Assembly (NCBI GenBank): GCA_938023035.1
Contig: CALIDI010000013.1
Coordinates: 1-64,000, forward strand
DNA: 64,000 nucleotides
DNA from: an uncultured Leptolyngbyaceae cyanobacterium
GTDB taxonomy: Bacteria > Cyanobacteriota > Cyanobacteriia > Leptolyngbyales > Leptolyngbyaceae
Direction of reading: 5' to 3'
Every line of letters begins with the position of its first letter. The first letter of the stretch is position 1. The position numbers and the translations under genes were made by a program. Of this stretch, positions 34,611-43,064 are shown piece after piece. The notes under the pieces were generated by a model, which saw only the letters and a list, made by a program, of their open reading frames with translations, searched no databases and was not told where the DNA came from.

Positions 34611-37403
34611 TTACTTAGACACCTCTAATTTTGCCCCATGGGCTAAAGGGAGCACTAACCGACTAACCGTGCGGTTGTCATCTAGTAGATAAACGGTGAG
34701 TTCCCCGCCAATTAATTGCATCAAGGCCTGACAAACAGCAATGTGTAGGCCAGGGGGCTGCTCCAGGGTTGATTGACGCAATAAGTCTTGGGTTCTGCCA
34801 CGCTCTAAATCGGCTAATAAACGGTGATTGACCTGCCCACTGTCGGTAATGGAAAGCTCAAACCAGCGATTATCGATCTGGCGACACCAGAGGTCAATGC
34901 GCCCACCCGCGCTAGAACGTTGACAAGCAAAAACCAGTAACTCGTAAAGGACAAGCTCTATCTTGCTAATATCGCCGCTAATTGTCAGGTTGGTTTCGTC
35001 ATGAACCTGCGACCAGAGTTGCCGCTGCCGGATTAACCAATCAACCCGCTCAATCGCTTTTTTTAAGAGACTAATTAAGGAAATGGTCTGAGTTTGGGTT
35101 TGCAATTGCCATTGCTCTTCCTGTAGCAAGCGCTGAATTGGTGCGATCGCCTCATTCAACTGGCGAAAAATTTGTTGTTGGCGTGTCTGGTAGAGAGGGT
35201 CTTTGGGCTGCTCCAGCTCATTTAGGCGCTTCATACTATTCATCAAGGCCCGATAGACATCTTCTAAGCGACGGTGCTTATACCAGTTCAGTTGTTCTAG
35301 CTCTTTGCGCTGTCGGGCGAGGTGCTCCGTCAGACTCACATAGCGGCGCGACCAAGCCAGTTGATTTACGAACAAGCGAACGGTTTTGAGTTGAGTGTCG
35401 CTCCAGTAGCGGCTGGACACGTCGGCTATCAGGAGAATGCTCGTAGGCTCATGCTCGGGTGCTGTGCGCAGGGTTGTGATGAGCACCTGACCAATGCTAG
35501 TGCCCTTCAGCCATTGCCGCGACTGAGGGGGAATGTCACCCCCGGCGATCGCCAGAACTTCCTCACTTTCTAAGGCCCAGCGCAGCAACGGATCGGTTTG
35601 AACTGAAATGGCTCCATTTGGTGTGACCGAAAAATTATCATTTTCAGGCGTCGCCGTCTTGACTCGGGCAGTGCTATCACCAGGCTGCCAGCTAATCAGG
35701 CCGACAAGGGGCGCTTGCAACAGTTGGGTCAGGTATTGTAAGGCTGATTTTTCTAAATCCTCAAGCTGGTGGGCTTGTTGAATGGTCGTTAAACCCCATT
35801 GAATCGTCTGATTAATCTTTTGCTGTTGCTCATTATCCTGTTGTAAGCTCCACTGATGCAAAATCACACCAATTTGCTGATTCACCATTTGCACCAGACT
35901 ACACTCCGCCCGATTCCAGGTTCGGGGTGTTTCATGACAAACAATCACAACTCCTTCTAGAGGGCTACTGTTGCGAGTGCTGCCAACCAGAGCGGCTTTT
36001 ACTCCCAGCTCCAGTAGAGACTGCCGCCACTCTTGCAGGCGTTGATCGCTATCCAGATTCTCAAAGGTGAGGGGCACAGCGCTATTTTCTAATTCCTTCC
36101 AGATGGGGTCAGGTAAGCGGCCTATTGCCCCTAATAAAGGTCGGCGATTGTGGGGTTGAGTTTGATAGGCTAGTTCAAACTGGGCCAGCTCACGGTTGAA
36201 GACGAGAAGGAGAAATCGTTCTGCCCGCAGGCGATAGCAAATTTGCTCTGCCGCCATCTTGAGGGTGTTTTTCCAATCTTCTTCAGTCGTAATCGAGCGG
36301 GCAATCCCTGCGGTTAGCTGCTGGTCGGCCTTAACCTCACGAATGGTTTGCTCCATCTCGTGTAGGGGGGCGGTGAGTGCAATAATTTGGGCAGCCCCGC
36401 GAATGTAACTTTTCTCTTCTTCCTCCCAGATGCGGGGTTCATTGCCTTCGACGGCTAAAAACCCCAAGAGTTCTCCCTGTACCAAAATTGGGGCCGCCAA
36501 GAGCGATCGCGCCCGAATTTGTTGCATCAACCGGCTCGTTAAATCTGCCTTCAGAGAACTGTGGGCTTCCCCAATCGAGACGATTTGATCGGCCAATAGA
36601 GCCTGGTAAAAGCCACCGACTTCTTGCACCGTAATCCCTGATGCGGGCTGATTTGCCTCATTAAAGCCGGTTGTTCGCTGACGATTACTCACCCGTCGCC
36701 AGAAATAGCGACGCTCCCGTTCAAACCAGTAGACACTAGTGCGGCTAGGTTGAATAAAGTGGTGCGTTTCTTCTACGACAGCCTCTAAGCGTGCGCCTAA
36801 CCCAGAGAGTTCGCGCATCTTTGTCAGCAGGGTGAGCAGAGGTTGATGAGGGCGTTTTTCCTGTTGGCGCTTCCATTCACTCTCAATTTGATAAAGCGCT
36901 GTGCCCAGGCTGCCAAAAACCATCGAGAGCCGCGCTTTCTCATCAGATCGGGGAGACACGCCCCAATGGGGGGTGCCCAACAGCACGACGCCATAGCAGG
37001 CATCTCGATAGCGAATGGGAAAAATGACCGTGCCTTTGATATTAAGTGCTTGAGCTGCCTTGCGCCATTCTCCGGCCCGCAACTCTTCACCTAAATCGGG
37101 TATGGCCAGAGGCCGTTGTTGAATCACCACTTGCTCTAATAAGTCGCCAGGACTCAACATAAATCGCTGCCGCAGCAGGGGGATGTGGCCTTCTGACGTG
37201 ATTCCCCCTTTACCCACCAAGCGGTGTTCGATGCGATCATATAACCCAATCCAGATTAGGGAATAGCTAAACTCAGTGCTAAGGAACCCTAAAACCGTAT
37301 CGATCAGAACGTCTGTATTTTCTTCTTCTCGCAAGATTTGAAGTGTCCGTCCCAGGGATACCAGTTGCTTGTCGTATTCATTTGGTTCTTTCTGGGAGAC
37401 CAT
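34611..37403 (-). CDS. Multi-GAF protein with degenerate histidine-kinase ATPase
   Basis: This 930-residue cytoplasmic protein is built of several GAF-type sensor domains. One lies near residues 25-165 (TDVLIDTVLGFLSTEFSYSL), a second at about 180-340 and likely ones at about 360-500 and 540-690. The C-terminal 230 residues resemble a histidine-kinase core: a helical part with LEQLNWYKHRRLEDVYRALM, then an ATPase-like part near 810-925 with ELSITDSGQ (a G1-like box). The N-box position reads IELVLYELLVFACQ without the usual Asn, so ATP binding may be impaired. I chose ATG 37403; the frame continues to a TTG at 37493, but those residues are not conserved-looking. Regulatory role inferred. Confidence 0.78.
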   Translation of the reverse strand: MVSQKEPNEYDKQLVSLGRTLQILREEENTDVLIDTVLGFLSTEFSYSLIWIGLYDRIEHRLVGKGGITSEGHIPLLRQRFMLSPGDLLEQVVIQQRPLAIPDLGEELRAGEWRKAAQALNIKGTVIFPIRYRDACYGVVLLGTPHWGVSPRSDEKARLSMVFGSLGTALYQIESEWKRQQEKRPHQPLLTLLTKMRELSGLGARLEAVVEETHHFIQPSRTSVYWFERERRYFWRRVSNRQRTTGFNEANQPASGITVQEVGGFYQALLADQIVSIGEAHSSLKADLTSRLMQQIRARSLLAAPILVQGELLGFLAVEGNEPRIWEEEEKSYIRGAAQIIALTAPLHEMEQTIREVKADQQLTAGIARSITTEEDWKNTLKMAAEQICYRLRAERFLLLVFNRELAQFELAYQTQPHNRRPLLGAIGRLPDPIWKELENSAVPLTFENLDSDQRLQEWRQSLLELGVKAALVGSTRNSSPLEGVVIVCHETPRTWNRAECSLVQMVNQQIGVILHQWSLQQDNEQQQKINQTIQWGLTTIQQAHQLEDLEKSALQYLTQLLQAPLVGLISWQPGDSTARVKTATPENDNFSVTPNGAISVQTDPLLRWALESEEVLAIAGGDIPPQSRQWLKGTSIGQVLITTLRTAPEHEPTSILLIADVSSRYWSDTQLKTVRLFVNQLAWSRRYVSLTEHLARQRKELEQLNWYKHRRLEDVYRALMNSMKRLNELEQPKDPLYQTRQQQIFRQLNEAIAPIQRLLQEEQWQLQTQTQTISLISLLKKAIERVDWLIRQRQLWSQVHDETNLTISGDISKIELVLYELLVFACQRSSAGGRIDLWCRQIDNRWFELSITDSGQVNHRLLADLERGRTQDLLRQSTLEQPPGLHIAVCQALMQLIGGELTVYLLDDNRTVSRLVLPLAHGAKLEVSK

Positions 37404-38361
37404 AGGTGCGATCGCTAATCGAGAAACATTAAGGAAACTGGGAGGATCTGAGTGAAATTCTGAACAAAGTGCCAATGGGTAAGCATTGGCCAACCTGGAG
37501 AACGTTGAAACGTGAAGAAGGAGGAGAGATTAGCGGCTATGAACTTTAGCAGGAAAGCTTCTTTCTAAGCCCGAAATGTTCTGACGACTGGAACAACGCC
37601 TTTGGCGATGGCTGAAAGACGAAGCAATTGAACGCATCGGCGGGGCAGGGTGTTTTGTAATGTAGGTATTTTGCCAGAATATCAGTGATTTGACCTGTAT
37701 TTATCATGCCAAATCCGGCTCTGGCTTTGCGACCTTTGCGGATCGAAGAAAAATTACTCTGGCAAAAGAGAATAAGAAAGGTGGGGTACTCGTGTTCTTT
37801 TATACCGTTACGTCGTGAAATCTCTTCTTTCAGGAAAAATTGAGTCAACCTTGTCAACGTTCAATTTGTCGGGTTTGACAGGGGGAAGCTTTTAGGTAAA
37901 CCCTGGTGGTAAAGCTCAGTTATAGCCATCGCGACCTGATTTGGGCGGGGGGCGGTGCTTCTACACTCCCTCACCCCGATTGGACTCAGAAACTTGGCGA
38001 TCGCTATTATGGGTCGATTCAATATAGCGGCTGGCTCAAAGTTCAGGTAGGAGGTTTGATTGGGTGCATGGCACTTTTGCCCTCACCCTTTTCTGGTATG
38101 CCCGGATTGCTCTCATCCCGCTCCCAAATTGGGAGCGGGACTTTGAGATGGCTCGGCTCCCCTTCTCCCAACCTAGGAGAAGGGCTGGGGGATGAGGGCC
38201 TGCAAAGCTACCATGCTCTTAATTTGATCTGTGGGTTTAATCTGTGGGGGGCAGATGGAAGATGCTTGGTGCGCATTGCCGGGTTGTCTGCTGTCATACA
38301 ACTTTGCGATTAAACTTTTATTTATGATTTTCGGTTGCCCACGTTTTTTCTCCCTCACCCT
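37404..38361. other. Intergenic region with repeat family B
   Basis: About 960 bases without a convincing gene. Repeat family B occupies 38061-38220. Positions 37953-38005 resemble 29772-29826. A 103-residue minus-strand frame at 37546-37857 has no family resemblance and is left out. Confidence 0.5.
38061..38220 (+). repeat. Repeat family B (MITE-like), full copy
   Basis: Left end: GGGTGCATGGCACTTTTGCC. Right end: GATGAGGGCCTGCAAAG followed by ...CATGCTCT. The ends are imperfect inverted repeats. Internal palindromes are CTCCCAAATTGGGAG and CCTTCTCCCAACCTAGGAGAAGG. It has no coding capacity, so any mobility would depend on a transposase elsewhere. Confidence 0.78.
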
Positions 38362-39627
38362 ATGGTGATTTTGACGCTGCTTAATCCTGACACAAAGACC
38401 CCTGTGCAAACGTGGCAATTTGAGCAGTCGATGATTCGCGTTGGGCGATCGCCCGATAATGATGTTGTGCTCAGTGATGGGGTTGTTTCACGCTATCACT
38501 TGGAGTTACGTACTGTCGCACCGCGATCGTTAGGGAAAGGGATGCCTCAGCCGGGTTGGGAAGTGGTCAACCGCAGTAGTAACGGTACGTTTCTAGACGG
38601 TTATCTGATTACTCAGGCAGCACTCCCTCCTCAAGGAGAACTGCGACTGGCGCAAACAGGGCCACTGCTCCACTTTCAACTGCAATTGGCAGCCCCCCCC
38701 AAAAAATCTCCAGAATTACCCCCCTTGCCCTCCTCCATTTCTCTGGGCAAGGTGCTCTGTGACCATCAAGGTAGCCCCCCCGATAATTTATTTTGCATCC
38801 GCTGTGGGCAGCCCCTACAAGTTCTTAAAACAGTGCGTCAGTATCAGGTGTTAAGGCTGCTTGCACGGGGGGGCATGGGCACAACTTACCTGGTTTGGAG
38901 CAGTGATGGCCATCGTTTGCATCCCCAGCGAGGTCGCTTGCAAGTCTTAAAAGAAATGAATGCCGATGTGGCCCACCTGCCCAAAGCGCAGAAACTCTTT
39001 GAGCGCGAGGCGATCGCCCTCAAAGCTCTACGACATCCGAATATCCCCCGGTTCTATGATTTTTTTATTGACCAGGGCAAAAAATATCTGGTGATGGAAT
39101 TAATCCATGGTCAGGATTTAGAGTGCCGGGTGCGGCAGCAGGGGCCGGTGGCGCTTCCCCAGGCGCTTGCCTGGATGATTCAAGCCTGTTAGGTGCTGGC
39201 TTATTTGCATCAGCAGCCCCAACCTATGATTCATCGCGATATCAAGCCCAGCAATTTATTGGTACGCCAGCGCGATCAGCAGGTCGTGGTCCTAGATTTT
39301 GGTGCTATTAAAGCTGCGGGCCTACTACCAGGCACCCGTATTGGGGCTGAAGGGTACAGCGCCCCTGAGCAGATTCAGGGGCGGGCAGTGATTCAATCGG
39401 ATCTGTATGCCATTGGCACCACGCTCATCTTTTTGCTGACGGGCCGATCTCCCGGTAAACTCTACCGCAAACAAGGGGGGATCTATCGCTTTGTGTTGGA
39501 TGAAGACCTGGGTTTACCCTTGCGTTTGCAGCAGGTGATTGAATGTGTGACGGCACCCGTACCGGGCGATCGCTACCCTTCTGCGACAGAACTAGCCCAC
39601 GCTCTGGCTAGCGCAGTGCCGCTGTAA
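38362..39627 (+). pseudogene. FHA-Ser/Thr protein kinase interrupted by an in-frame TAG
   Basis: Read through, this would be a 421-codon protein: FHA domain (about 1-95: VGRSPDNDVVLSDGVVSRYH, NRSSNGTFLDG), a zinc-ribbon-like CDHQG...FCIRCGQ (about 133-153) and a eukaryotic-type kinase (about 160-415). Kinase motifs are intact: LLARGGMGTTYLVW (glycine loop), LQVLKEMN (Lys), MIHRDIKPSNLL (catalytic), VVLDFGAIK (DFG) and GYSAPEQ. Codon 277 (39190-39192) is TAG, directly before VLAYLHQQPQPMIHRD. Related kinases usually have Glu or Asp at this spot, and GAG or CAG would need one change. The halves are otherwise in the same frame. It may be a young pseudogene, an amber readthrough or a sequencing error. 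A GTG follows the TAG directly but has no clear ribosome-binding site. Confidence 0.85.
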
Positions 39628-39645: not shown

Positions 39646-40545
39646 TCAACACGCAGTGGACGACTCTGCGCTGCTTGCAACCTCCGGCTGGATCCGAAGC
39701 TGGTAGCTTAGGTGCGATTGCACCCTCCCTGGTGTAATGGCCCCTGTGATGGGCGCGGCGTAGCGTGGAATAGCACTGGCCGCAAGGGCAACATGGCGAT
39801 CGCTGACTAACAACCCCAAGGTCGGGTCATACCCGCGCCACCCAGCGCCAGGTAGATAGACCTCTGCCCAGGCATGCAAATGGCGCTCTGGAGTGTCTGG
39901 GTCACCCTCGTGATAACCACTCACAAAGCGGGCTGCCAGCCCAACGGCGCGGCAGACCTCGATAAATAACACGGCATAGTCGCGGCAAGAACCCGCTTTG
40001 GTAGACCAGGTAATTCCTGGTAGCTGGGGTTCCCCAGTTTCGCGAATACTGTATTCACAACTTGCGTAAATGCGTTGGTTTAAGCCCGACAAAAATTGCA
40101 ACGGATGCCCTGGATGAATTTGCCAGATCTCCTGGGCGAGCTGGACGGCTGCTGGATCCAGACTTTGGGAATACCCCAGCGATCGCCCACTCAAATAGGG
40201 CTGGAGCTGCTGTAGAAGAGAAGCCGGATAGTCGTAAGGGAGACTCAGTGCCCAAGGTTCTAATAAGTAGTCAAAGGGGTTGGCCTTGTGGGTCTCCACC
40301 TGGGACAAAATTTGCACCTCCAGGGAAGACGTCGACACCCCTGGGTCAAACCAAAGCTTTACCAAATGGTTGCCATCTAAATCAGTGTAGTGGGATTGGT
40401 CAATCGGCATCGGAGCCACTAGCAGCGAAAATGATTGCAATGTCTGCCAACTGTCACTGCGAGGTAATAGCCGAATGATGTGCGGTTGCAACTGCACAAG
40501 CTCATCGTAACGATAGGTAGTGGTATGACTAATTTGATATTTCAA
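39646..40545 (-). CDS. Transglutaminase-like domain protein
   Basis: This 299-residue protein has the Bact_transglu_N plus transglutaminase-core architecture. It starts MKYQISHTTTYRYDELVQLQ, followed by PHIIRLLPRSDSWQ. The catalytic triad is visible as TKAGSCRDYAVLFIEVCRAV (Cys), RHLHAWAEVYLPGAG (His) and YDPT (Asp). It probably acts as a peptidase or amide-bond enzyme and not as a classical transglutaminase. The start codon is TTG at 40545, with AGGAG about 11 bases upstream; no ATG fits. It is the last of three co-oriented genes (ATP-grasp, alpha-E, this one), a well-known linked set thought to make or cut peptide-like tags. Confidence 0.9.
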   Translation of the reverse strand: MKYQISHTTTYRYDELVQLQPHIIRLLPRSDSWQTLQSFSLLVAPMPIDQSHYTDLDGNHLVKLWFDPGVSTSSLEVQILSQVETHKANPFDYLLEPWALSLPYDYPASLLQQLQPYLSGRSLGYSQSLDPAAVQLAQEIWQIHPGHPLQFLSGLNQRIYASCEYSIRETGEPQLPGITWSTKAGSCRDYAVLFIEVCRAVGLAARFVSGYHEGDPDTPERHLHAWAEVYLPGAGWRGYDPTLGLLVSDRHVALAASAIPRYAAPITGAITPGRVQSHLSYQLRIQPEVASSAESSTAC

Positions 40546-40562
40546 GACAATAACCGCTCCTG

Positions 40563-41537
40563 TTAACTCGCCATTTCTATCACTGACTCCAGTGCAAAAA
40601 AGGTTTCAAAAATCTTCTCACCCACATTGTTCATCCGCGTTTGTAAGTCATCTAGAAACTCATGCATGCCAAACTGGATGATTTCATCAATCGTGATGTA
40701 GTCTAAATCAGCGCGCAAACGTCCTAAAGTGCGCTCGACAGTAGCACGCCAAGAGCCTAGGGGTGTACCCGTAATCTTGTGCAGCGATCGCTCCGCTTCG
40801 ATAATACAAAACCGAATTGAACGCGGAAATTCTCCATCTAAGATTAAGAAATCTGCCACTGACTGGGGCGAAATTCGATGCATTCCTCGTTTGCGATACA
40901 TCTCATAAGCACTGGCCGACTTGAGCAGAGCAATCCACTGTAATTCATCTAGGGTTGTGCCGACATCCCGTACAGAGGGCAGCAGAATAAAGTATTTCAC
41001 ATCGAGAATGCGGGCTGTTTTGTCCGCTCGCTCTAGCAAGCGCCCAATCTGACCAAAGTGCCAGCCCTCATTGTGAGACATGGTCGCATCCATAATTCCT
41101 GCAAACAAATGACTGGCCTGTTTCACCTCCTCAAAGAAGTGAAACAACGCAGCGGTATCGGTGGCCCGCAGATGTTCCGCCGCTTCAGTCACCATCAGGT
41201 AAAAGGCATTTACTTGCTGCCACATTTCTGAAGAAATAATTTCGCGCACAGAGCGAGCATTTTCGCGGGCACGGCAGAGACAGGAAAAAATTGAGCTAGG
41301 GTACTCGGCATCAAAGGTGAGAAACCGCAAAACATTCTCGGCTGTGGCTTCACCATAGCGTTGTTGAAATAGAGGCAAGTCTCCTGTAGTCAAGACAATG
41401 GGCTGCCACTGCTGAGTCATTCCCTCAGGGGAATCGAGCAGCAGATTAAGATTAACCTCAACAAAACGAGAAACATTTTCGGCTCGCTCGACATAACGAT
41501 TTAACCAGTAGATTGAATCTGCAACACGACTCAGCAT
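40563..41537 (-). CDS. Alpha-E domain protein (DUF403)
   Basis: This 324-residue, almost wholly helical protein is of the alpha-E/DUF403 family. It begins MLSRVADSIYWLNRYVERAE, the family hallmark, and continues with REIISSEMWQQVNAFYLMV and GRLLERADKTARILDVKYF. No catalytic role is established; the family always occurs with circularly permuted ATP-grasp and transglutaminase-like proteins, and may provide a binding or dimer scaffold. It is 17 bases upstream of the transglutaminase gene, so co-transcription is very likely. Confidence 0.93.
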   Translation of the reverse strand: MLSRVADSIYWLNRYVERAENVSRFVEVNLNLLLDSPEGMTQQWQPIVLTTGDLPLFQQRYGEATAENVLRFLTFDAEYPSSIFSCLCRARENARSVREIISSEMWQQVNAFYLMVTEAAEHLRATDTAALFHFFEEVKQASHLFAGIMDATMSHNEGWHFGQIGRLLERADKTARILDVKYFILLPSVRDVGTTLDELQWIALLKSASAYEMYRKRGMHRISPQSVADFLILDGEFPRSIRFCIIEAERSLHKITGTPLGSWRATVERTLGRLRADLDYITIDEIIQFGMHEFLDDLQTRMNNVGEKIFETFFALESVIEMAS

Positions 41538-41630
41538 AGGTAAAGATAGGGAAGTGTAAAGTCTTCTAAGATCTAAACTTTAGAATCAATTAGAATCAGA
41601 AAGTGATTCTGACTGGTATCATCCAAACCT

Positions 41631-43064
41631 TTAAGAACTGACGACCCAGGTATCTTTGCTGCCCCCTCCTTGCGAAGAGTTGACTACTAGCGAACCCTTG
41701 CGTAGGGCTACACGGGTCAGGCCGCCAGGATTGACGTAAATATCTTTGCCATAAAGGATATAGGGCCGCAAATCGACATGGCGACCCTCAAAGTGATCAT
41801 CCACCAAGGTCGGAACCCGCGACAGGGAAAGGGTTGGCTGGGCGATGTATTGACGGGGATGAGTGCGGATGCGATCGCTAAAGTCATCTCGTTCTGCCTG
41901 AGTTGCCTTAGGCCCCACTAGCATGCCATAACCGCCTGATTCATCCGCTGATTTAACCACCAACTGATCCAGATGATCCAGCACATACTGCTGTTGCTCT
42001 GGCTCCCAGCACAAGTAGGTCGGTACATTATTGAGAATCGGCTCTTGATCGAGGTAGTAGCGGATCATCTGGGGCACGTAGGCATAGATCACCTTGTCAT
42101 CCGCAACACCCGTGCCTAGGGCATTGGCGATCGCCACCCGGCCTGCTCGGTAAACCTCCATCAAACCAGGGATACCAAGAAGCGAGTCGGGACGAAAGAC
42201 CAAAGGGTCAATGAAAGTATCATCAATGCGGCGATAGATCACATCTATCCGCTGTAACCCCTTCGTGGTGCGCATCTGTAAAAACCCATCAGCCACGACC
42301 AGATCGCGTCCTTCTACCAGTTCTACCCCCATCTGTTGCGCCAGAAAGGAATGTTCAAAATAGGCAGAATTAAAAATTCCAGGCGTGAGCACCACGACTG
42401 TAGGGTCCAGCATATTGGCCGGGGCAAGATTCAGAAGCGTTTCCAGCAGATGGCTGGGATACTCCTCCACTGGTTGAATTTTCATGTTGTTGAAAACCAG
42501 GGGAAAGGTGCTCTTCATCACGCGCCGATTTTCTAGCACATAGGAAACCCCAGAGGGGCAGCGCAGGTTATCTTCCAACACATACCAGCAGCCATCCTGA
42601 TCGCGCACTAGATCGGTACCTGTGATATGACACCAGATCCCCGCTGGGGGTTTCAGACCCAAGCACGGCTTTAAATAGCCACTGGCCGAAAAGACTAATT
42701 CAGCAGGAATCACCCCATCAGCAAGAATTTTTTGATCGCTATAAATATCGGATAAAAATAAATTGAGCGCACTGATCCGCTGTTTAAGCCCCTGCTCCAG
42801 GATAGCCCACTCCGAAGCTGCCACAATCCGCGGCATGATGTCGAAGGGTAAAATACGCTCCGTTCCCTGGTTGTCGCTGTAGACATTAAACGTAACGCCT
42901 AGTTTAAACAAGGCAATCTGAGCGGCTTTATGCCGACGCTGAATATCCTCCAAAGACAGCGAATTAAGCCGCTCAATCAGCGGGGCAGCCTCGGGGCGCG
43001 GTTCGCCCTTGGCGCTGAATAGTTCGTCATAAAATCCTTCGGTGTCATAGTCGTGGAATTGCAC
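41631..43064 (-). CDS. Circularly permuted ATP-grasp protein (DUF404/DUF407)
   Basis: This 477-residue protein is the CP-ATP-grasp type 2 family, predicted to join a carboxylate to an amine using ATP. The [18 protein letters not shown] start and [20 protein letters not shown] are hallmark sequences. [20 protein letters not shown] (metal/ATP binding), [35 protein letters not shown] and [10 protein letters not shown] follow. The start is GTG at 43064, matching family starts. It heads the three-gene set with the alpha-E and transglutaminase-like genes. The substrate is not known; a peptide-like tag or modification is the published prediction for this gene set. Confidence 0.93.

Follow-up and report, generated by a model that had tools for sequence, protein, structure and literature searches.

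The interrupted kinase gene and its surroundings

The DNA analysed here (hereafter the window) is a stretch of 64,000 nucleotides, positions 1 to 64,000 of contig CALIDI010000013.1 in the assembly GCA_938023035.1 of an uncultured Leptolyngbyaceae cyanobacterium, an assembly which measures 4.75 Mb in 62 contigs and is 95.9% complete. On its forward strand, a gene for an FHA-domain Ser/Thr kinase occupies positions 38362-39627, from an ATG at 38362 to a TAA at 39625-39627, and is interrupted by an in-frame TAG at 39190-39192, which is codon 277 counted from that ATG. The upstream part (38362-39189) comprises 276 codons for the FHA domain, a CxxC stretch and the first stretch of the kinase domain, which reaches to profile position 106, and the downstream part (39193-39627) continues in the same frame with 144 codons, the first of which is GTG, and the TAA, encoding the remainder of the kinase domain with its HRD, DFG and APE motifs. 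The triplets around the stop read TGT TAG GTG (39187-39195). Past the TAG, the frame stays open until the TAA with no second stop and the kinase family PF00069 is matched on both sides, confirming the starting point of a sequence-only reading of the window, namely that a lone in-frame TAG splits an FHA-Ser/Thr kinase.

The kinase gene is flanked by a GAF-domain gene (34611-37493) and by a transglutaminase-like gene (39646-40545), both on the reverse strand. The intergenic DNA upstream of it contains an inverted repeat of 12 nt at 38116-38140, with perfectly matching arms and a loop of 1 nt. A scan for promoters and terminators gave no result above chance. Genes for the transglutaminase-like protein, an Alpha-E protein and a circularly permuted ATP-grasp protein lie side by side at 39646-43064. 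The first two are adjacent in three of the four relatives having both (G001, G011 and G012) and lie apart in G015. A search of the flanks of kinase orthologues for seven neighbours from the window, which took in 31 loci with flanks of mostly only about 1.5 kb, found none of them at the nine loci shown (two of which are the same G001 locus), and the transglutaminase-like/Alpha-E pair was not found beside the kinase at these loci.

Domain architecture on both sides of the stop

The FHA domain matches PF00498 over residues 25-95 (E 2.9e-11, 44.1 bits against a cut-off of 20.7). PF00069, a profile of 263 positions, is matched consecutively at positions 1-106 before the TAG and 111-198 after it; the TAG splits this match and neither open chain contains a complete kinase domain. 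A check of positions found the catalytic residues all in place, distributed over both sides of the TAG: Lys197, Glu216, HRD at 291-293, DFG at 312-314 and APE at 334-336, which, together with the G-loop, we take to be the kinase motifs of those names. The stop falls 14 residues ahead of the HRD. The earlier statement that all kinase motifs are intact therefore holds for the Lys, Glu, HRD, DFG and APE but not for the G-loop (38863-38880), which reads ARGGMG and has its first glycine replaced by Ala168, in a column occupied by Gly in 27 of 28 relatives and by Ala in the remaining one. The upstream part moreover carries the CxxC stretch FCIRCG, starting at residue 144, which on our reading, and not by a database match, is zinc-ribbon-like. 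A chain ending at the TAG lacks the catalytic loop, the DFG and the activation segment, and in a chain starting after it the G-loop and the ATP-binding lysine are missing.

Among kinases with solved structures, the bacterial Ser/Thr kinases of the StkP/PknB type are related, StkP aligning to residues 135-418 (E = 1.2e-25). Unlike that type, the present protein has an N-terminal FHA domain, the PASTA family was not found in either half and the score with the NCBIfam model PknB_PASTA_kin (141.7 bits) is far under the cut-off of 450 bits. By domain make-up, the protein can be likened to the cyanobacterial FHA kinases (cbSTKII with FHA) in the available part of the survey PMC2176072, which likewise combine FHA and Ser/Thr kinase in one chain and for which its table gives Thermosynechococcus, Trichodesmium, Anabaena and, by locus prefix, Nostoc; unlike these, the present copy is interrupted by a stop. 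The same part of that survey reports that 17 of 303 proteins were left out because an important catalytic domain was wholly or partly missing.

The stop is private to this genome

Codon 277 is a sense codon in all 28 aligned relatives, encoding Glu in 15, Asp in 12 and Lys in one, as had been expected from the sequence of the window, where Glu or Asp was predicted at this place. The 28 sequences of the alignment include 24 distinct ones (in four cases one protein had been fetched by two routes), and L031 was omitted, being the same locus as L040. At E<=1e-90, 21 of the 42 genomes of the family match the kinase, and apart from the window's own genome none (0 of 20) has a stop inside the match; a search at the level of the order gave the same 42 genomes. 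The stop is private to one lineage with its relatives open, the pattern of a recent nonsense pseudogene, and a stop conserved at the same position, as in recoding, was seen in 0 of the 20 genomes and 0 of the 28 aligned sequences. The absence of the stop from the aligned relatives also agrees with the main rival explanation, in which the cell possesses an intact kinase and the TAG is a wrong consensus base, due to a sequencing error or to a less abundant strain in a mixed sample. A single base suffices for this, since the frame is otherwise unbroken, and we give it a minor though appreciable weight.

The sequence TAGGTG puts a possible start directly past the stop, which raised the option of termination at the TAG followed by reinitiation at the GTG next to it, giving two chains that reassemble as a split kinase. 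The GTG noted earlier is indeed there, but in the codon after 277, 15 of the 28 relatives have GTG, 6 have another Val codon and 7 have ATT (Ile), and because GTG is present in 15 relatives with no stop before it, this codon is the inherited Val codon and not a new start. Reinitiation is weakened by this inheritance, by a sequence before the GTG in which no Shine-Dalgarno-like stretch is seen by eye and by the loss of the ATP-binding N-lobe from a chain starting there; with no aligned relative having a stop here either, we regard it as highly improbable.

The gene looks dispensable, because half of the family (21 of 42 genomes) is without a match at E<=1e-90, a threshold which divergent copies may escape. 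In its own genome, the kinase protein has a full-length match in one place, the query's, and a search with 301 bases of DNA returned only the query site itself, so neither the protein nor the DNA search found a second, intact copy in the assembly. Neither relatives nor the same stretch were found in viral contigs.

Coding constraint persists beyond the stop

For a relative-rate test, the closest of the genomes compared (G001) was taken as sister and changes were counted at sites on which the outgroups are unanimous. In residues 1-276, this branch has 9 changes and the G001 branch 6 (p 0.61), and in residues 278-421 the two have 5 and 6 (p 1), so the relaxed constraint after the lesion that would be expected only of an old one is not seen. 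The corresponding counts for control genes are 8:12 (Alpha-E), 6:15 (transglutaminase-like) and 24:20 (GAF), G003 being missing as an outgroup for the first two. Single-outgroup counts after the stop range from 8:16 to 14:8, and the counts are therefore to be taken as small. Taken whole, the kinase (14:12) leans toward faster change on this branch than the controls, a difference that is not significant either against Alpha-E and transglutaminase-like pooled (14:27, Fisher p 0.13) or against the three controls pooled (38:47, p 0.50). In columns conserved to at least 95%, departures of the kinase number 6 in 87 before the stop and 2 in 43 after it, compared to 4 in 88 and 1 in 43 for the sister, and there are hints of a slight relaxation of constraint on this branch. 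Differences to the sister at codon positions 1, 2 and 3 amount to 0.34, 0.18 and 0.62 before the stop and 0.25, 0.18 and 0.65 after it, a third-position excess which indicates that the downstream part is under protein-coding constraint.

These figures largely refute an old, decaying pseudogene, an explanation to which one might assign the in-frame stop itself, the change of the first G-loop Gly to Ala and the somewhat more numerous departures at conserved columns than in the sister. The relative rates and the codon-position differences, with no significant acceleration on either side and the third-position excess kept, led us to reject it; moreover, no further stop is present, the in-frame match with relatives spans the whole length and the gene contrasts with a truly decayed ABC gene in the same genome (see below), leaving old decay with next to no probability. 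Protein-coding constraint acted on the kinase gene during most, if not all, of the period since it diverged from the sister. As neither half is significantly accelerated, it has not long been dead, and the lesion would be young or else a base error, the latter being equally in line with a coding constraint that is kept on both sides. Put generally, the stop would be young, or not real, or read through.

Stops inside conserved domains are few in the assembly

Whether the assembly abounds in such interruptions bears on a consensus error. Single, unclustered frame breaks validated by BLASTP are, in the available part of PMC3711429, expected to reflect errors of sequencing and not genuine indels, but that work concerns frameshifts and hence bears on substitutions by analogy only. 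A sample of 393,001 bases of the genome, the window included, holds 15 in-frame junctions between coding segments, the kinase among them; 11 of the other 14 join unlike Pfam families and in three no Pfam family is found on one side or on both, so that the kinase junction is the only one in the sample with a single domain running across the stop. An excess of stop-split genes was rejected, since 11 of those 14 junctions are neighbouring genes of unlike families. Internal stops were likewise few in conserved domains: none in 89 response-regulator matches, one in 68 ABC matches, in a decayed gene, and, among 31 matches to the kinase protein in its own genome, one at the query's own place only. 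The ABC search scored 150 of 161 first-look candidates, and these counts are of internal stops, frameshift errors falling outside them. With so few stops inside conserved domains, the assembly does not look error-ridden, which speaks against a wrong consensus base at codon 277.

The one stop-containing ABC match belongs to a remnant of an ABC transporter ATPase gene (G000:C18:178741-179499, L103:4742-5500), flanked by a hydantoinase-like gene and an ORF of 347 aa. It consists of a 101-codon ORF with a Walker-A-like stretch followed by two further in-frame stops with recognisable sequence between them; two TAGs are present, the match covers profile positions 1-96 of 137 and the 3' part of the domain is gone. 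TAG recoding was rejected for these stops, the loss of the 3' part marking a decayed gene, and the remnant looks to be an older pseudogene of this genome.

TAG is an ordinary stop in this genome

A further option is a real stop with readthrough frequent enough to give a working full-length kinase. The frame and the constraint that persist past the stop fit this, as does the argument in the available text of PMC7918605 that many in-frame stops in otherwise undecayed bacterial genes are read through; the sequence directly 3' of the TAG is GTGCTGG. The cases of PMC7918605, as far as its available part describes them, likewise have one in-frame TAG, no other decay and constraint on both sides. They differ in that its focus is on stops common to at least two species, whereas the kinase TAG occurs in one genome of the 21 matched, the other 20 being without it. 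Among the sources of in-frame stops, the same part lists annotation artefacts, sequencing errors and pseudogenes next to premature stops in functional genes.

The decoding machinery speaks against readthrough. The gene for RF1 is intact, and ARAGORN, which read all 40 tRNA matches of the genome, found a CTA anticodon in none; with 150 of 220 first-look candidates scored in an assembly 95.9% complete, a tRNA may have been missed. Neither a suppressor tRNA nor a loss of RF1, either of which would point to recoding, was thus found. The 306 coding-like segments of the 393-kb sample end in TAG in 117 cases (the kinase's own counted), TAA in 96 and TGA in 84, with nine at an end, and TAG, being the commonest stop in the sample, is therefore an ordinary stop in this genome. 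On these grounds, a reassigned TAG or a suppressor tRNA was rejected. RNA folding near the stop is unremarkable (z = -0.92, with 37 of 200 shuffles equal or better), and a readthrough-promoting structure was rejected as well. In E. coli, TAG reporters gave on average 0.01-0.80 percent of wild type, a range that covers the temperatures and media listed in the available part of PMC11126739. Altogether, nothing we found appears to point to programmed decoding of the TAG. Support for readthrough beyond the sequence constraint is absent, and a young lesion explains that constraint equally well, just as a read-through gene would equally be expected to show it downstream. Readthrough sufficient for a working kinase is accordingly improbable. 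A variant, in which useful readthrough gives mostly an FHA-N-lobe adaptor and a small share of active kinase, seems more doubtful still; if true, one gene would yield both a phosphopeptide reader and a rare kinase.

Interpretation and significance

The reading we favour, with a probability of roughly 0.66, is a nonsense allele of recent origin, leading to an FHA/N-lobe fragment with no kinase activity. One recent substitution in an FHA-Ser/Thr kinase gene of single copy would have made the TAG midway along it, and RF1 would end translation there. The product would be a chain of 276 residues and about 31 kDa with the phosphothreonine-binding FHA domain and the kinase N-lobe, presumably inactive as a kinase because the catalytic loop, the DFG and the activation segment are missing. 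The event would be so young relative to the sister split that neither other lesions nor a significant acceleration have appeared yet. The data show a stop that is present in this assembly and absent from relatives, with continuing constraint around it and neither a second copy nor recoding machinery found in the assembly; we infer its presence in the DNA of the cell, its recent origin and the inactivity of its product. Of the four options raised in the sequence-only reading, a fresh nonsense mutation and a read error fit all of the evidence, but readthrough is unsupported beyond the constraint and reinitiation has lost ground. The sequence expected from a young lesion is identical to that expected from a base error and does not by itself separate the two; the weighting in favour of a mutation is our judgement, the assembly looking clean where sampled.

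Single nonsense alleles in dispensable genes are ordinary in bacterial genomes, and the kinase gene looks like such an ordinary case of recent mutation, or like a base error, rather than a special decoding trick. By itself, a single nonsense allele in a dispensable gene would therefore have little significance. For annotation, the consequence would be that the locus is listed as two short proteins or as a pseudogene. Moreover, the gene is a clean candidate for probing readthrough in a cyanobacterium, at a single amber stop within a gene under constraint.
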